A stretch of 64,000 nt of DNA from Nitrospirota bacterium (GTDB lineage Bacteria > Nitrospirota > Thermodesulfovibrionia > Thermodesulfovibrionales > SM23-35): positions 1 through 64,000 of the forward strand of contig JACAFF010000001.1 in assembly GCA_013388455.1 (NCBI GenBank). Reading direction: 5' to 3'. This document shows positions 2,957-25,450 of the stretch, in pieces (within the stretch, counting starts at the first letter, position 1; each line of letters starts with the position of its first letter). A model generated the notes under the pieces. It made no database searches. It was not told the origin of the DNA and saw only the letters and a program-made list of their open reading frames with translations. The translations under genes were made by a program, and so were the position numbers.

Positions 2957-3724
2957 TTAAGGTATATTAAGTGCGTCGAGTATTTTGAAAAGAGTTATTA
3001 TAGCTGGTGAATTTTCTGGAACCTCAAATACCGCTTTTCCTTTAAGATCATAATTAAAAATTGTTTCATCATTTGGTATTAGACCTTCAATCTCCAATCC
3101 TAAACCATGTGCAAAATTTTTTAATTCCAATCCATCTTTTTCAGATACTTTATTAATTATTATTATGCGTTTTTCAATATCAAGCTGAAGTTCATCAATC
3201 AAAGAATTAATTCTCTTTGCTGTCTGGATACCCCTCAGAGAGGGATCGCTTACTATAAAAAGCAAATTGACTTTATGGGTTGTTCTCCTGCTTAGATGTT
3301 CCATCCCTGCTTCATTGTCAATAATGATATATGGATATGTTTCCGCAAGCTTATCTGTATATTTTCTTATTATATTATTTGCTGCACAATAGCATCCGGG
3401 GCCTTCAGGTCTTCCCATTACTATCAGATCAAAACCTTTTGATTCTGTAATAGACTGCTGTATCTGATAATCAAATATCTCTTCTAAAGACATACCCCCA
3501 GGCCTTTCAGAACCGCTTCTAATAACCTGAAGAGATTCTTCACGTAATTTTCCTATAGTTGTTAACACTTCTACACCTAGAGCTTCATTTAAACAGCTAT
3601 TTGGATCTGCATCAACAGCAAGTACAGGCATTTTCTTCTTTTCAATAATATATCGGATTGTGAGGGCAGCAAGACTTGTTTTTCCTGTCCCGCCCTTACC
3701 AGCCATAGCTATTATAAAAGACAT
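2957..3724 (-). CDS. CooC-like P-loop ATPase (first of two in the window)
   Basis: MinD/ArsA-type ATPase of the CooC family, known for nickel insertion into carbon monoxide dehydrogenase. The deviant Walker A AGKGGTGKTS is at residues 7-16 and VDADPN follows at about residue 39. GPGCYCAANN near residue 110 supplies the CxC pair that binds metal at the CooC dimer interface. No CODH/ACS gene is visible, so the client enzyme is unknown. It converges with the galT-like gene and is divergent from the cytochrome at 3787. A second paralogue lies at 59494. The family assignment is firm; the metallocentre it serves is inference. Confidence 0.85.
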   Translation of the reverse strand: MSFIIAMAGKGGTGKTSLAALTIRYIIEKKKMPVLAVDADPNSCLNEALGVEVLTTIGKLREESLQVIRSGSERPGGMSLEEIFDYQIQQSITESKGFDLIVMGRPEGPGCYCAANNIIRKYTDKLAETYPYIIIDNEAGMEHLSRRTTHKVNLLFIVSDPSLRGIQTAKRINSLIDELQLDIEKRIIIINKVSEKDGLELKNFAHGLGLEIEGLIPNDETIFNYDLKGKAVFEVPENSPAIITLFKILDALNIP

Positions 3725-4331: not shown

Positions 4332-7028
4332 ATGTTTGGTTATATAAAAAAATCTCTGGGTAATAAGATAACATTTGCAATAGTCGTCATAATAATTTCT
4401 CTAATATTGGTCGAAATATATATGCGAATATATTTTGGAACAAAAGACAGAGTAGAGCTAATGACAATGCTCGCTAAAGAAACAGCGGTATCTACATATG
4501 CTGGAATTAAACATCCTATGAGAGTTGGCGATAAAGAAGGTGTTAAAAGAACTTTATTAGACATAAAAGAGCGTACTGACGAAATTGATGTTTTTATATG
4601 TGATTTTAATCAGAAAATAAGTTATTCTACCGATGAAGATATTGTTACAAAAAGGGTAGAAGAAGCGATTAAAAATAGGATTATACTTACAAATTTAAAA
4701 GAAATATTAGAAAGCGGTATCGAAAGTATGAGATCATTTGAGGATAAAGAAATTTCAGGAGAAAAATATCTTGTTACAATATTCCCTATTTTGAATCAAA
4801 AGGAATGCTATCATTGTCATGGTTCTTCAAGAAGTGTTATAGGAGGTATGATTGTAAGAGTTGGTGTTGAAAAGGTCTATGCTACTGTTGCTGCTCAGAG
4901 AAATAGGACAATTTTAATTACTTTATTCGGTTTAACTATTGCAATAATCTTAATTTATCTGATGTTAAATAAACTTGTAAGAAGACCCGTTGAGAATTTA
5001 GCGAAAAAGGCTAAAAAATTTGCAGATGGTGATATGAATGTATCAGTTCAGGTAAATACAGAAGATGAGATTGGAGTTCTGGGTAAAACATTTAACTATA
5101 TGGTTGAGAGTGTTTCATCTACTAACAGAAAACTGGAAGAAGAGATTAAGAGAAAGACGGACTTATTAAATGAAAGAACACGATTATTGACCCTTCTTGA
5201 AGCTGCCAATAAAGAATTGAGAGAGCTTGATAAGTTGAAATCTACTTTTTTGGCCAACATGTCTCATGAATTAAGAACACCTATGAATGCAATAATTGGT
5301 TATACAGATTTACTCCTTGATGGAGTCGATGGCCCTATCAATGAAGAACAGGAAAAGAGCCTTAAAAAGGTTGTAGCAAATGCAAGGCATCTTTTGCAGT
5401 TAATCAATGATGTTCTCGATATCTCAAAGATAGAGTCAGGTAAGATGAAGTTGTCTCCAAAGGAGATAGATATAAAATGGCTGATTGAGTCTGTTCTACC
5501 CACGTTTGAACCACTTATAGAACAAAAGAATCTATCTCTTACCATAAATATACCGAAAGACATGCCTCTTATTTATGGAGATGAAGATAAGATAAAACAG
5601 ATACTGATAAATCTCATTTCAAATGCTATTAAATTTACACATAAAGGTGGAATTAATATAAATGCAAAAATCTCGGAACGAGGAGTTAAACAGGGGGAGT
5701 CACCAATATTTGCTGAGATATGTATAGAAGATACTGGAATAGGGATTAAAGAAGAAGATTTAGGCAAGATTTTTGACAAATTTGTTCAAGTAGATCTTAC
5801 CACTGTTCGTCAATATGAAGGCACGGGTCTTGGTCTGAGTATTGCGAGAGGCTTGGTATCATTACATAAAGGTATGATCTGGGCGACAAGCAAGTTAGGC
5901 GAGGGGAGTAAATTCTGTTTCACAATTCCTATAAAAAAGGAAGTTCTTGAAAAACCTACTGAACCTATAATAGAGGAAAAGATGGCAGAAGGTCTTGCAG
6001 AGTATTTTGGATTACCGGTTGAGAAGTTTTTAAAAGAGCCTGAATATGCTGGGAAAAAGTTAAAATGCTGGGAATATGTGAGATGTGGACAGCCAAGTTG
6101 TCCAGCATATGGAAGTAAAGAAGGCAGATGTTGGATGATTTTTGGAACACATTGTGCTGGCATGAAGATAGCTTCCTATCCTGAAAAGGTAGATTTTTGC
6201 AAAGGGTGTGAGCTTATAAAAAATATTGTTGTTTGCCCGGAATCAGAATATGCTTTTGCAGAAATTGAAGTTCCTGAAAGATATCCTGAAAAAAAGACGA
6301 TTTTAGCTGTAGATGATAATCCTGAAGCAATAGATATTATAAGAAAATATCTGAGAAATGACTATAATGTGGTTGGAGTTCTTAGTGGAGAAGATGCACT
6401 TAAGAAGGCGAAGGAGATTAAGCCTCTTGCGATAACATTAGATATAATGATGCCAAAGAAAGATGGCTGGCAAGTTTTACGAGAGCTAAAAAGTCATCCG
6501 GAGACTCAAGATATTCCAGTAATCGTGCTTACTATTGTGGATGACAGAAAGCTAGGGTTCAGTCTTGGTGCTACTGAATATATAGTTAAGCCAATAGAAA
6601 AACAGATTTTTTTGAGAAAAATAAAAAATCTCGAGAAAACTGGAAATATAAAACGTGTGCTAATAGTTGATAATGATACGGAAACAGTTAGATTGATCGG
6701 AAGCCTTTTAAAAGAGGCAAATTATCAGGTTTCGAATACATATAATAGTAATGATGCTATTAACTCAATAAAAAATTTCATCCCAGATCTTATAGTACTG
6801 AACCCAACATCTCCTGATGTAGGATTTGATGTTATTGAATATTTAAAGAAAGAAGAAAATCTTAAGAATATACCTGTGATTATAATTACGAATAAAGATC
6901 TTACAGAAGAACAGATAGATGAACTTAATGGTAGAATACAGGGAATCCTGAACAAAGGCATGCTTACAAAAGAAGACCTTTTAATTGAACTCAGAGATAC
7001 CATAAGCAGGGTTGAAAGGTTACGATAA
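4332..7028 (+). CDS. Hybrid histidine kinase with periplasmic c-type haem sensor and two receivers
   Basis: Membrane sensor kinase of 898 residues. Order: TM1 (about 13-34); periplasmic sensor with a CYHCH haem c motif at residues 159-163; TM2 (about 195-215); HAMP; HisKA with the phosphorylated His in MSHELRTP near residue 312; HATPase with DTGIG and GTGLGLS; a cysteine-rich CW module (about 575-640, starting KCWEYVRC); receiver 1 (LDIMMPKKDGW, acceptor Asp near 704); and receiver 2, which is degenerate because the acceptor position reads LIVLNPTSPD. Haem c in the sensor suggests redox, O2 or NO sensing (inference). It is followed without a gap by two more signalling genes. The CW module recurs in the HD-GYP protein at 12202. 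Confidence 0.9.
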   Translation: MFGYIKKSLGNKITFAIVVIIISLILVEIYMRIYFGTKDRVELMTMLAKETAVSTYAGIKHPMRVGDKEGVKRTLLDIKERTDEIDVFICDFNQKISYSTDEDIVTKRVEEAIKNRIILTNLKEILESGIESMRSFEDKEISGEKYLVTIFPILNQKECYHCHGSSRSVIGGMIVRVGVEKVYATVAAQRNRTILITLFGLTIAIILIYLMLNKLVRRPVENLAKKAKKFADGDMNVSVQVNTEDEIGVLGKTFNYMVESVSSTNRKLEEEIKRKTDLLNERTRLLTLLEAANKELRELDKLKSTFLANMSHELRTPMNAIIGYTDLLLDGVDGPINEEQEKSLKKVVANARHLLQLINDVLDISKIESGKMKLSPKEIDIKWLIESVLPTFEPLIEQKNLSLTINIPKDMPLIYGDEDKIKQILINLISNAIKFTHKGGININAKISERGVKQGESPIFAEICIEDTGIGIKEEDLGKIFDKFVQVDLTTVRQYEGTGLGLSIARGLVSLHKGMIWATSKLGEGSKFCFTIPIKKEVLEKPTEPIIEEKMAEGLAEYFGLPVEKFLKEPEYAGKKLKCWEYVRCGQPSCPAYGSKEGRCWMIFGTHCAGMKIASYPEKVDFCKGCELIKNIVVCPESEYAFAEIEVPERYPEKKTILAVDDNPEAIDIIRKYLRNDYNVVGVLSGEDALKKAKEIKPLAITLDIMMPKKDGWQVLRELKSHPETQDIPVIVLTIVDDRKLGFSLGATEYIVKPIEKQIFLRKIKNLEKTGNIKRVLIVDNDTETVRLIGSLLKEANYQVSNTYNSNDAINSIKNFIPDLIVLNPTSPDVGFDVIEYLKKEENLKNIPVIIITNKDLTEEQIDELNGRIQGILNKGMLTKEDLLIELRDTISRVERLR

Positions 7029-21195: not shown

Positions 21196-22653
21196 ATGCA
21201 TAGGAAAATCAATAAGATACTAATTGCTAATCGTGGTGTTACTGCTGTAAGAATTATGCATACTTGCAGGGACAGAAAAATTCCGACTACTGCAGTTTAC
21301 AGCACGCCTGATCGTCTGGCACATCACGTATTTACGGCTGATTCAGCAATTCATATTGGTGAAGCCCCTCCATTGGAATCTTATTTAAATATGGAGAAGA
21401 TGATAGCGGCAGCTATTCAAAGCAAGTCAGATGCAATTCATCCTGGATGGGGCTTCCTTGCAGAGAATCCTGTTTTTGCTAAAATGGTTCAGGATGCTGG
21501 TCTTATCTGGATAGGTCCCTCTCCTGAAGTAATCAAGTCTCTCGGAGATAAAATTCAGGCAAAAAGACTCGCTCAAAAAGCAAATGTTCCAACTATCCCT
21601 GGTATCATAAATGTCACAAACACTGAGCAGATAAAGAAGTGGATGAAAAAAGAGAATATAAAGTATCCAATAATGATAAAGGCAGTAGCAGGCGGTGGTG
21701 GGAAAGGTATGGTGAAAGTTTCGAGTGAAGATGAATTAACTCGGGCTTTTCAACAAGCACGATCCGAAGCCCTTAAAGCATTTGGTGATGAAAGGGTTCT
21801 GGTAGAAAAGTATATAGAACTTGGGCGGCATATAGAAGTTCAGATAGTTGCAGATGAGTATGGCAATGTAGTCCATCTTTATGAAAGAGAGTGCACAATA
21901 CAGAGGCGCAATCAAAAGATTATAGAAGAAGCTCCGTCTCCATCAATTAATGAAGATCTTCGTAGAGAGATATGTTTTACAGCAGTGCGACTGATGCGGG
22001 AAATAGGTTATACATCTGCTGGAACTGTAGAATTTATTTTTGATTCATCAACAAGAAAATTCTATTTTCTTGAAGTAAATACAAGGCTTCAGGTTGAGCA
22101 TGGTATAACTGAACTCATAACAGGTCTGGATATTGTTGGAATTATGATTGATGTTGCAATGAAAAAGAAACTTGCTTTTAAACAATCGGATATTATGCCA
22201 AACAGATGGGCACTTGAGGTGCGAATGAATGCAGAAGATCCAAAAACCTTCAGTCCATCATTCGGAAAGATTACCAGATTACAGGTGCCGCAAGGTCCTG
22301 GCGTGAGAATCGCTACAGGCGTATACGAGGGTGCAGATATACCACCTTATTATGATTCACTTTTTATGTTAGTTATAACAGCAGGGGTAGACAGAGAGGA
22401 TGCAATACGCGTTATGGATCGAGCTCTCAGTAGAAACCTGCGTGTCGAGGGTGTTAAAACTCTTGCACCACTACTTTTAAGTATAATAAGGCATCCTGCT
22501 TTTATTGCTGGGGAGTACTCCACACGTTTTATTGAAGAACATATGGATGAACTCATCTCTATGTTTAAGGAAAAAGACAGTGAAGATGAAGTACTGAAGA
22601 TCGCAAGATATGTTGCTGAAATATCTGCTCTCGGACCTCAGAAATGGATGTAA
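21196..22653 (+). CDS. Biotin carboxylase subunit (pyruvate/2-oxoacid carboxylase subunit A or AccC-like)
   Basis: ATP-grasp biotin carboxylase of 485 residues that carboxylates the biotin of a partner subunit. Markers: KILIANRG start, AIHPGWGFLAENP, the glycine-rich ATP loop AVAGGGGKGM, HIEVQIVADEYGNV, ECTIQRRNQKIIEEAPS and FLEVNTRLQVEHG. The immediately following gene encodes carboxyltransferase plus biotin carrier domains, so the pair forms a two-subunit 2-oxoacid carboxylase (pyruvate or 2-oxoglutarate) rather than acetyl-CoA carboxylase. ATG at 21196 follows AAGGAATA. Confidence 0.9.
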   Translation: MHRKINKILIANRGVTAVRIMHTCRDRKIPTTAVYSTPDRLAHHVFTADSAIHIGEAPPLESYLNMEKMIAAAIQSKSDAIHPGWGFLAENPVFAKMVQDAGLIWIGPSPEVIKSLGDKIQAKRLAQKANVPTIPGIINVTNTEQIKKWMKKENIKYPIMIKAVAGGGGKGMVKVSSEDELTRAFQQARSEALKAFGDERVLVEKYIELGRHIEVQIVADEYGNVVHLYERECTIQRRNQKIIEEAPSPSINEDLRREICFTAVRLMREIGYTSAGTVEFIFDSSTRKFYFLEVNTRLQVEHGITELITGLDIVGIMIDVAMKKKLAFKQSDIMPNRWALEVRMNAEDPKTFSPSFGKITRLQVPQGPGVRIATGVYEGADIPPYYDSLFMLVITAGVDREDAIRVMDRALSRNLRVEGVKTLAPLLLSIIRHPAFIAGEYSTRFIEEHMDELISMFKEKDSEDEVLKIARYVAEISALGPQKWM

Positions 22654-22666
22654 AGGATTGTGTTTG

Positions 22667-24730
22667 ATGAATAACAAAAAAGCAAAAAAGAAAAAAATAG
22701 AAAAAGAGAATAAGAAAAATTATATATTCGTAAAACCAGGCATGTCACCTGTTGATATTGTTAGGACTGTGCGTTCTCTCAAGGGCGTTTGCTTTACATC
22801 GGTTGGTATGCGTGACGCAGGACAATCTGATTATAAGAACCGTCATCGTATTTATGACCTTTCAACTCTTGCACCCTATTACAATAGGATGGGCTTATTT
22901 AGTGCAGAATGCCATGGAGGTGCAAGGTGGCATGTTGGTGTCATGAACCGCAGGGAAAGTCCATTCGAAGAGTTAAACATCTTAAGAGAGACAATGCCAA
23001 ATGTGCTTTTGCAAACTCTTATACGTGAGACAAATCTATGGGGATATCGACCATATCCTAAGAATGTGATTGAATATGTTATCTCACGGGTTGACATCGA
23101 TGTCTGGAGGTGTTTCTCGTTTCTGAATGATGTTAGAAATATGCGAGCAGTTGCAGAAGTTGTAATGAACAGGGGAAAGCTTTTTGAACCTGCGATATCA
23201 TTTACAATGGCAGACTGGACAACAAATGAATATTATCTAAATGTTGTGAAAGAAATTGTTAATCTCTGCGGAGGCACAGATCAAATAATATTATGCATTA
23301 AGGATATGGCTGGGGTGGGTAGCATTAAAAGAATAGGGAATCTTATTGATGCAATAAAACAAAAATATCCTGAACTTGTAATTAATTATCACAGACATAT
23401 AACCGATGGTCTTGCAATGCCTGCCTTTCTATCTGCGGCTCGGGCAGGAGCTAAGATTTTTGATGTTGAAGAAGATTCTCTTGTCCGTTTTTACGGACAC
23501 TCACCCATATTAGGTGTTCATGCGTATTTTGAAGAGATGGGAATACACGTAAATCTTGATAGGAATGAGGCTGAGTCAGCAGTACAGAAGGTAAGGGAAT
23601 GGATAGGTTTTTATGATTGGGCTGAATCACCTTTTAAAGGTTTTGATCATACAGTTACTTATCATAAAATGCCAGGAGGTGCTTTCCCAAGTTCATTCGA
23701 ACAGGCTGATAAAGGGGGGTTCCTTCATTTAATGCCAGCAATCTTGAAAGTAATGTCTTTATATAACAAAATTATCCATTACTTTGATGTTACCCCAGGT
23801 TCTCAGATTACTTGGGTAACATGTAGTGGTATTGTAAACAGGTATGCAAAAGCAAAAGGGGAGGCCGGAGTCAGACATCTCATAGAGCTTCTCACAAAAT
23901 TTATTGAACAGAAATCATTGAATTTTAACGATATGGATAAAATTGAACAGGATGAGTTGCTTTATCTTTTCAAGAATGCACCAGGGGATTTCAAGAATCT
24001 TATTCTTGGCCATTATGGCAGGTTACCTATGGGATGGCCACCGGAATGGGTTTATAAAAGTACATTCGGTGATGAATGGGAGCAAAAGATAAAGGAAAGA
24101 ATAGAGCTTTCTCCGCTTGATTCATTACCCGATGATGATCTGGTTAGTCTAAGGCAGGAACTAACAGTCGCTATTAACAGAGAACCAACAGAGGAAGAGT
24201 TCATTCTATACCTGATGCATCCGAAAGATGCATTAGAGATGATTGAGTTTAGAGAAAAGTATGGAGAATCGCCTTTGGTATTACCAACACCTGTATGGAG
24301 AGAAGGTCTGAAAAGACCGGATGACAGAGTAGATTTTGAGCTGTGGGGAAAGCCTTATAGTATTGAACTTGTATCAGTTGGGGCTGAACATGAAGGCATA
24401 ATTCATGTTGTTATGCGTGTTAACAATAAGACAAGGGTTTATAGTGTAGAGACTCCAAGAGCAAAGAAGGTAGAGATTAGAATAGCTAAACGTCCAAATG
24501 AAATAGGAGCACCTATTAATGGCAATATCTGGAGGATTGGTAATCCTGAGAGAGGTAAACTCAAGGTTGGTGATATAGTTCACAAGGGTGAAGAGATAGC
24601 AAATCTTGAAGCAATGAAGATGGAAAACGCAATTGTTGCTCCTTTCGATGGGCAAATTACTGAAATATGTGTAAGACTGAACGACTTTGTTGTTGAAGGC
24701 CAGCTTTTATTTATCTTAGAAAAACAATAA
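22667..24730 (+). CDS. 2-oxoacid carboxylase carboxyltransferase/biotin subunit (PycB/OadA-like, divergent)
   Basis: Protein of about 687 residues: HMGL-like carboxyltransferase domain, PYC/OADA conserved domain, then a C-terminal biotinyl domain with EAMKMEN as biotin site. It retains the catalytic Lys in IKDMAG, both metal His and the Thr in NYHRHITDG, and Arg, Asp and Gln of RDAGQS. Two otherwise near-invariant motifs are changed: DAHQS reads DAGQS and GATFD reads GARWH. A lysine-rich N-terminal tail (NKKAKKKKIEK) is unusual. ATG at 22667 follows the biotin carboxylase stop by 13 bases. Substrate (pyruvate, 2-oxoglutarate or other) is not settled by sequence. Confidence 0.85.
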   Translation: MNNKKAKKKKIEKENKKNYIFVKPGMSPVDIVRTVRSLKGVCFTSVGMRDAGQSDYKNRHRIYDLSTLAPYYNRMGLFSAECHGGARWHVGVMNRRESPFEELNILRETMPNVLLQTLIRETNLWGYRPYPKNVIEYVISRVDIDVWRCFSFLNDVRNMRAVAEVVMNRGKLFEPAISFTMADWTTNEYYLNVVKEIVNLCGGTDQIILCIKDMAGVGSIKRIGNLIDAIKQKYPELVINYHRHITDGLAMPAFLSAARAGAKIFDVEEDSLVRFYGHSPILGVHAYFEEMGIHVNLDRNEAESAVQKVREWIGFYDWAESPFKGFDHTVTYHKMPGGAFPSSFEQADKGGFLHLMPAILKVMSLYNKIIHYFDVTPGSQITWVTCSGIVNRYAKAKGEAGVRHLIELLTKFIEQKSLNFNDMDKIEQDELLYLFKNAPGDFKNLILGHYGRLPMGWPPEWVYKSTFGDEWEQKIKERIELSPLDSLPDDDLVSLRQELTVAINREPTEEEFILYLMHPKDALEMIEFREKYGESPLVLPTPVWREGLKRPDDRVDFELWGKPYSIELVSVGAEHEGIIHVVMRVNNKTRVYSVETPRAKKVEIRIAKRPNEIGAPINGNIWRIGNPERGKLKVGDIVHKGEEIANLEAMKMENAIVAPFDGQITEICVRLNDFVVEGQLLFILEKQ

Positions 24731-24824: not shown

Positions 24825-24831
24825 TTTTATA

Positions 24832-24962
24832 AAAGGGGAGTAGCTGAACAGTGGCTATCGTCAATACGTTCATATAAATGGGCCGGTACCACTGGTTAGT
24901 AAAACTAACAAGCGAGACCTTTACCACATATTTTTAAGAATATGAGGTGAAGGTCTTTTTTT
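24832..24962 (+). promoter_or_regulatory. yybP-ykoY manganese riboswitch with intrinsic terminator
   Basis: The leader contains the signature blocks of the Mn2+-sensing yybP-ykoY aptamer: AAAGGGGAGTAGC (24832-24844), CGTCAATACG (24859-24868), GCCGGTACCACTGG and AAGCGAGACCTTTACC (24910-24925). The P1 3' strand AGACCTTTACC (24915-24925) also pairs with GGTGAAGGTCT (24946-24956) just before seven T, an intrinsic terminator that excludes P1. In known cases Mn2+ stabilises the aptamer and lets transcription proceed. Downstream are a broken htpX and an intact P-type ATPase (25451), consistent with Mn2+/Ca2+ efflux control. Confidence 0.92.
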
Positions 24963-24975
24963 ATGAAAGGTGAAT

Positions 24976-25316
24976 ATGAACACTTTAAAAACAATGATAT
25001 TAACCTAAAAAAATGCATTTAGATTAATGCAGATTTGTGAGAAAATTTATTTTTCGATACCTTAGTGTACCTATAACTAATAGTTTTATGAATATTTTTA
25101 TCCATATAACAAATAAAAATAATTTAATAATTTCATCGAGTTAAAGAAATTTTCGAGCAATATCTGCATTATTTGGGTTAATAGTTACTTTGATACTCAT
25201 GCTTATAGGCGTTGGGGCTATTTATGGAGTAGAACTGTAAACTCTTTAGTACCCATCCTCCAATAGAAGAAAGGATAGCGAGACTTGAGGTTATGGTATA
25301 TGGTATTAGGTATTAA
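24976..25316 (+). pseudogene. htpX: Broken htpX (M48 membrane protease) remnant
   Basis: Three pieces of an HtpX zinc metalloprotease survive. MNTLKTMI (24976-24999, after ribosome site GAAAGGTG) is the family's N-terminus. Copy B of the repeat follows; the frame then resumes as VTLILMLIGVGAIYG (25184-25228), the first membrane helix. Finally LFSTHPPIEERIARLEV (from 25242) to the stop at 25314-25316 is the HtpX C-terminus. Excising the element with its flanking TA or TTAA duplication restores the N-terminal frame. The protease core, including HExxH, is deleted. Placed first after the riboswitch, so it was probably the original leading gene of the operon. Confidence 0.82.
25000..25181 (+). repeat. 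TTAACCC-ended repeat, copy B (182 bases, inside htpX)
   Basis: MITE-like element beginning TTAACCTAAAA and ending TTTGGGTTAA. The left arm holds GCAGATTTGTGAGAAAAT followed by TTATTTTTCGATACCTT; the right arm holds GAGTTAAAGAAATTTTCGAG and CTGCATTATTTGGGTTAA. No open reading frame. It sits between TA dinucleotides (24998-24999, 25182-25183) in the reading frame of htpX, which makes this the best view of its boundaries. Copy C matches both arms in the opposite orientation. Confidence 0.85.
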
Positions 25317-25450
25317 AGGGATGATGAGATGACAGATACAAAAACTAAAAACTTACTATTAAACCTGATTTTATTGCTGAGGATATTTTTGAAGTGGCTT
25401 AATGGATTATGCGTAAAATAAAAGTTGTTATAGAATAATAGCGAATAAAT
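25317..25450. other. Spacer between htpX remnant and P-type ATPase
   Basis: Contains a possible 30-residue reading frame from ATG at 25329 (MTDTKTKNLLLNL...), and in another frame the text KPDFIAEDIFEVA, which could be a decayed small gene. Neither is recognised. No terminator is visible here, so riboswitch-started transcripts can reach the ATPase. Confidence 0.3.

Follow-up and report, generated by a model that had tools for sequence, protein, structure and literature searches.

Behind a leader RNA in the genome of a Nitrospirota bacterium lie the remains of htpX, a membrane protease gene of which two ends persist and the core is gone. The window is the whole 64,000-nucleotide stretch of DNA that was analysed, and the remnant occupies its positions 24976-25316, where the first 25 and the last 25 codons of htpX are found together with a 182-bp TTAA-ended element inserted after codon 8. 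It is very likely that this wreck once headed an operon under riboswitch control and that the leader, very probably a riboswitch of the Mn2+ type with Mn2+ as its predicted ligand, is now set before the gene of a P-type ATPase. The features of the locus are as follows.

21196-22653: pycA, a synteny anchor upstream of pycB; the same pycA-pycB-leader order occurs in relatives
22610-24730, + strand: pycB-type carboxylase subunit, the upstream synteny anchor; pycA-pycB-leader order also at the relatives' loci L138, L140, L143 and L144
24826-24959, + strand: leader RNA, very probably of a divergent yybP-ykoY (Mn2+) type, comprising an aptamer with a three-way junction (24828-24926) and an overlapping intrinsic terminator (24914-24957); from covariation (alignments A1 and A2), model R1 and the terminator fold
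24976-24999, + strand: htpX codons 1-8 (MNTLKTMI), with the ATG at 24976; aligns with MNGLKTMV of relatives
25000-25181, + strand: MITE of 182 bp, counting the TTAA at each end, with imperfect terminal inverted repeats TTAACC.AAA..AATGCAGAT; multicopy in this genome and in genera of the same family, with a 4-bp direct target duplication
25178-25228, + strand: htpX codons about 9-25 (LIVTLILMLIGVGAIYG), the first transmembrane helix; positions 1-25 of an HMM of leader-linked HtpX once joined to codons 1-8
25229-25238, + strand: breakpoint of the internal deletion, which removed about 234 codons (about 700 bp); flanked by profile coordinates 25 and 260
25239-25316, + strand: htpX C-terminus KLFSTHPPIEERIARLEVMVYGIRY and stop; NCBIfam HtpX E = 2.6e-6, HMM 27.1 bits
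25451-28123, + strand: PMR1-type cation P-ATPase of 890 aa, intact; no other intact gene now separates it from the leader; TIGR01522, 749.6 bits

A first-pass annotation, made from the sequence alone, had described both ends of the remnant as HtpX-like, and profile searches bear this out. The C-terminal 25 residues match the NCBIfam HtpX models at profile positions 266-286, while the N-terminal 25 residues match them at positions 2-26 with an E-value of 0.34 only. With an HMM derived from the leader-linked HtpX proteins of 11 relatives, the C-terminal piece is recognised at positions 260-280 and the N-terminal piece at positions 1-25 (21.0 bits), so that both pieces match HtpX profiles at the corresponding ends, in the correct order and on the correct strand. 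The frame that opens with MNTLKTMI resumes at the right-hand TTAA (25178) as L-I-VTLILMLIGVGAIYG-VEL-stop, reading LIVTLILMLIGVGAIYGVEL from the second TTAA to its stop; the C-terminal piece lies in a different frame, from 25239 to the stop at 25316. Removal of the element with one TTAA copy restores the N-terminal frame, as the annotation had also proposed, and the joined N-terminus MNTLKTMILIVTLILMLIGVGAIYG aligns residue for residue with MNGLKTMVLMVTLTLMLVFIGGLLG of the relatives, for which reason a single TTAA is taken to be the empty site. The protease core is indeed missing: codons 26-259 in HMM coordinates, the HExxH zinc site included, are absent. Thus, the remnant retains the N-terminal helix and the C-terminal LFSTHPPxEERIxRL motif of HtpX (peptidase family M48; NCBIfam NF002826 / PRK03001), whereas the catalytic core and the middle transmembrane part are deleted and protease function is impossible. 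The intact HtpX copy of one relative clears the NF002826 cut-off (413 versus 369 bits).

The element within htpX, bounded at this locus by TTAACC and GGGTTAA, had been described as a small TTAA-ended insertion, and it proves to be a multicopy MITE. It is no chance feature of the locus: the 2.1-Mb genome matches it at 66 places, and about 16 of these matches cover all or nearly all of its length. The closest sister copy in the genome is 96% identical, and further copies are present outside the genus, both within the family and, elsewhere in the order, in certain other families. Three copies outside TTAA sites are flanked on both sides by the same 4-mer in direct orientation (TTTA/TTTA at L011, ATAA/ATAA at L015 and TAAA/TAAA at L042), indicating that the target duplication is 4 bp long and mostly TTAA. 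The element is like bacterial MITEs in its length of less than 200 bp, its terminal inverted repeats, its many copies, its lack of coding capacity and its 4-bp duplication; it differs from them in that no autonomous partner or transposase was found in the genome or, as judged by end pattern, in relatives. No transposase-bearing partner was recognisable among the ORFs read by eye at 20 single-ended sites in the genome, whose draft assembly may lack such a partner, and an end-pattern search of 31 genomes yielded no pair of MITE ends 0.8-3 kb apart. The first 200 or so bases of contigs C8 and C22 of genome G000 (L003 and L004) consist of a nearly identical MITE copy and identical flank, and the MITE probably breaks the assembly at the starts of these two contigs.

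Loss of htpX beneath a retained leader is not confined to the window. In the relative G001 (L140:5925-5998), the frame behind the leader reads MNSLKTM-GTHPPIEDRIERLKAIN-stop, and a carbonic anhydrase gene comes next. Here an in-frame internal deletion, with break points other than those in the window and with no element, leaves a 24-codon frame (MNSLKTMGTHPPIEDRIERLKAIN); this loss is independent of that in the window, and no HtpX was found elsewhere in the 95% complete genome. In G007 (L137:5524-5800), the leader precedes RVARLESMRRG, a truncated GDT1-family fragment (18.2 bits) and an intact TerC gene. RVARLESMRRG resembles the htpX tail and scores 1.2 bits only, and this locus is suggestive of a third case of leader-linked loss. 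Leader-linked htpX has therefore disappeared on at least two occasions, each time with the leader retained.

The ancestor of the window would have possessed pycA-pycB, a transcriptional ON riboswitch of the Mn2+ type, htpX and, directly or after a few genes, the PMR1-type P-ATPase gene. A TTAA-targeting MITE would have split htpX between codons 8 and 9, and a deletion would have removed about 234 codons of its core, the two events in either order. A second, intact and leaderless htpX at C3:87592-88425 of the same genome, a point that the first-pass annotation had missed, probably made the loss tolerable through presumed redundancy. The annotation had held that the element struck a living gene which decayed afterwards; insertion and deletion are both confirmed, and the order is one of two possible ones, since an eight-codon N-terminus survives either order and G001 lost its core without the element. 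The converse, that an already dispensable htpX first lost its core and that the MITE then landed in a dead gene, its TTAA being incidental, has a little less than an even chance. It gains from the element-free deletion in G001, from the retention of at most the htpX tail in G007, from the second htpX of the genome, and from the intact MITE ends and the 96% identical sister copy, which suggest a fairly recent insertion. Set against it is the N-terminal frame, which, once the insertion site is joined, still encodes the HtpX helix with no stop; this fits a living gene but does not require one.

The leader that precedes these genes is a well-defined structure. About 40 columns are invariant across the 20 to 21 aligned leaders. 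Their shared fold is a three-way junction, in which 13 pairs have changed on both sides compared with 5.1 in shuffles, and 96.6% of cells are paired compared with 24-49% when the alignment is slid. Model R1 gives the window leader 94.5 bits, the sole match in the genome at E <= 0.001, and the terminator fold has a z of -7.9. The outer helix (P1) of the window leader contains five pairs rather than the usual seven, which counts against the overall reading, and its 3' strand, CCUUUAC, doubles as part of the 5' arm of the terminator. Because this segment is common to both, the two helices are mutually exclusive and the layout is that of an ON switch. In the Mn2+ riboswitch of L. lactis, Mn2+ stabilises the equivalent helix and termination is prevented (PMC11087558).

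The class of the leader is less readily read from Rfam. No Rfam family reaches its threshold on the window leader, where RF00080 (yybP-ykoY) is absent both at gathering level and at E <= 5, and the gathering score of 45 bits is attained neither in the window nor in relatives. On those leaders of relatives that match, RF00080 gives 9.8-22.6 bits, with the highest score in G029, and its best matches in G029 and G031 coincide with leaders of the same class. Model R1, derived solely from these leaders and thus free of E. coli sequence, detects the Mn2+ riboswitch of E. coli mntP at 22.6 bits (E = 3.6e-5, a rough value from a shortened calibration; the next match in the 3.1 kb searched scores 8.6 bits), a covariance-level similarity to a characterised Mn2+ riboswitch. 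This match lies at the same place as that of RF00080, with which the mntP control itself scores 41.6 bits, under the gathering score. The leader is like RF00080 in its GGGGAGUAGC and GUCA segments, in a switch helix that overlaps the terminator, and in its TerC, GDT1 and P-ATPase targets. Unlike RF00080, it is a compact three-way junction that scores under the gathering level, and it precedes htpX, carbonic anhydrase and SPFH genes, a setting unreported for yybP-ykoY in the papers found. A bglG-cis-reg identity was rejected, the score being 24.6 bits against the 80 needed and the match reflecting the terminator hairpin alone.

It is improbable that the leader responds to a cue other than Mn2+, such as a different divalent ion or some general signal of membrane or metal stress. 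Such a cue would be in keeping with a leader below the Rfam threshold and with the carbonic anhydrase, HflK and large membrane protein genes behind some leaders, which are no classical Mn genes; it fits poorly with the cross-match of the leader model to E. coli mntP, with the sub-threshold RF00080 matches that fall on these leaders in G029 and G031, and with TerC, GDT1 and the PMR1-type ATPase as neighbours. The tie that the first-pass annotation had drawn between htpX and an ancestral Mn2+ regulon is very probably correct, as argued by gene context and the mntP cross-match, though no Rfam family is at threshold.

Model R1 finds the leader in 26 of 61 genomes, and it is present in 42 of 246 sampled Nitrospirota genomes. 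An intact htpX lies directly behind it in 11 of the 26 (G002, G004, G013, G016, where it is cut at a contig end, G030, G031, G035, G041, G050, G051 and G059; the leaders of G041 and G050 were found by the model and missed by a simple pattern). Among the leader loci read, the next gene is htpX in 15 and carbonic anhydrase in five; several others have a small Zn-ribbon protein gene there, with TerC or the P-ATPase after it, several more have the P-ATPase directly, and TerC and an HflK/SPFH gene occur once each. Pfam confirms TerC, GDT1, carbonic anhydrase, Band_7 and Zn-ribbon among the leader-linked genes, and at L056 and L071 the run of genes with leader-htpX also includes a GDT1-family gene. 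Such neighbours are what one would expect in a Mn2+ regulon. The order in relatives is leader-htpX with the P-ATPase directly behind or a few genes on, and the riboswitch-htpX-ATPase arrangement that had been expected of close relatives is thereby found in L144, L136, L147 and others. L144 has it after pycA-pycB, and L136, L142 and L147 have most of these elements. One locus, L072, carries two leaders of the same class (3248-3508 and 4458-4600), before htpX and before the P-ATPase. At L177 (G059), leader-htpX is followed by a gene that by eye looks like ftsH; the two membrane proteases may form a pair under Mn2+ control.

The P-ATPase gene is now the next intact gene in the window. Its best NCBIfam match is the PMR1-type Ca2+/Mn2+ P-ATPase (TIGR01522), at a score just under the equivalog cut-off of 798.3 bits, and its substrate is predicted from this family match. 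Its closest named relatives are mostly labelled Nitrospirae or Thermodesulfovibrionales, and in many relatives it stands behind the same leader, directly or within the operon. A scan revealed no further terminator-like site between leader and P-ATPase, with loop and stem limits that also miss the leader's own long terminator, and no remnant of a small Zn-ribbon gene was recognised by eye in 25317-25450. Since htpX is dead and the P-ATPase follows, the switch probably drives this metal pump gene. To judge from the sequence, the present role of the leader is most likely the control of the PMR1-type P-ATPase by readthrough, with the htpX wreck as a spacer. At high Mn2+ the intact leader would let RNA polymerase through to the P-ATPase, and the htpX remnant and MITE would form untranslated leader.

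Two other accounts of the remnant fare badly. That the truncated htpX is an artefact of the assembly, a draft of 2.1 Mb in 44 contigs, is very unlikely: the element is repetitive and some contigs start in the MITE, but the copy in htpX lies mid-contig with unique flanks, and the separately assembled G001 genome has a comparable loss. In a tree of HtpX (a quick tree with weak to moderate support), the leaderless lineage includes the genome's own intact copy and no leader-linked copy, and eight of the 11 leader-linked copies form a second group, with three unplaced; G004, G016 and G035 carry both kinds. In DNA identity the remnant is about equally close to both, and the HMM scores compared are 21.0 versus 17.5 bits; we place it in the leader-linked lineage on its position and on this small difference. 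An origin as a partial duplication of the htpX at C3:87592-88425, with no resident gene, is rejected on DNA identity as most improbable, for despite a common peptide (KLFSTHPPIEERIARL) the identity to that copy is just 45/72 (N-terminal) and 43/60 (C-terminal), no higher than to other species, and the place behind the leader and pycB is the ancestral site of leader-linked htpX.

If the assignment is true, a Mn2+-type riboswitch before htpX ties metal excess to membrane-protein quality control. HtpX co-purifies with the TerC-family proteins MeeF and MeeY in Bacillus subtilis, which hints at a tie between metals and proteostasis (PMC10550928). A regulatory link between a Mn2+ riboswitch and htpX is not reported among the papers found. 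The recurrent deletion of htpX beneath a persisting leader would also show how a riboswitch can come to control the following gene through nothing more than a deletion. On balance, we favour a general picture for Nitrospirota in which a divergent Mn2+ riboswitch governs a membrane-proteostasis set (htpX and, in single genomes, ftsH or HflK/SPFH) together with Mn exporters (TerC, GDT1 and the PMR1-type ATPase), and in which the first gene, htpX, has been repeatedly deleted and the next gene brought directly under the retained riboswitch.

Three leaders, L142, L146 and L145 (in G004, G016 and G005), contain an insert of about 55-110 nt in the aptamer, where it sits in the GUUAG/CUAAC hairpin loop. 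Its ends, CCCCGTTAGAA...TTCTAACGGGG or a close variant, are inverted, and it is apparently another small element tolerated by the riboswitch.
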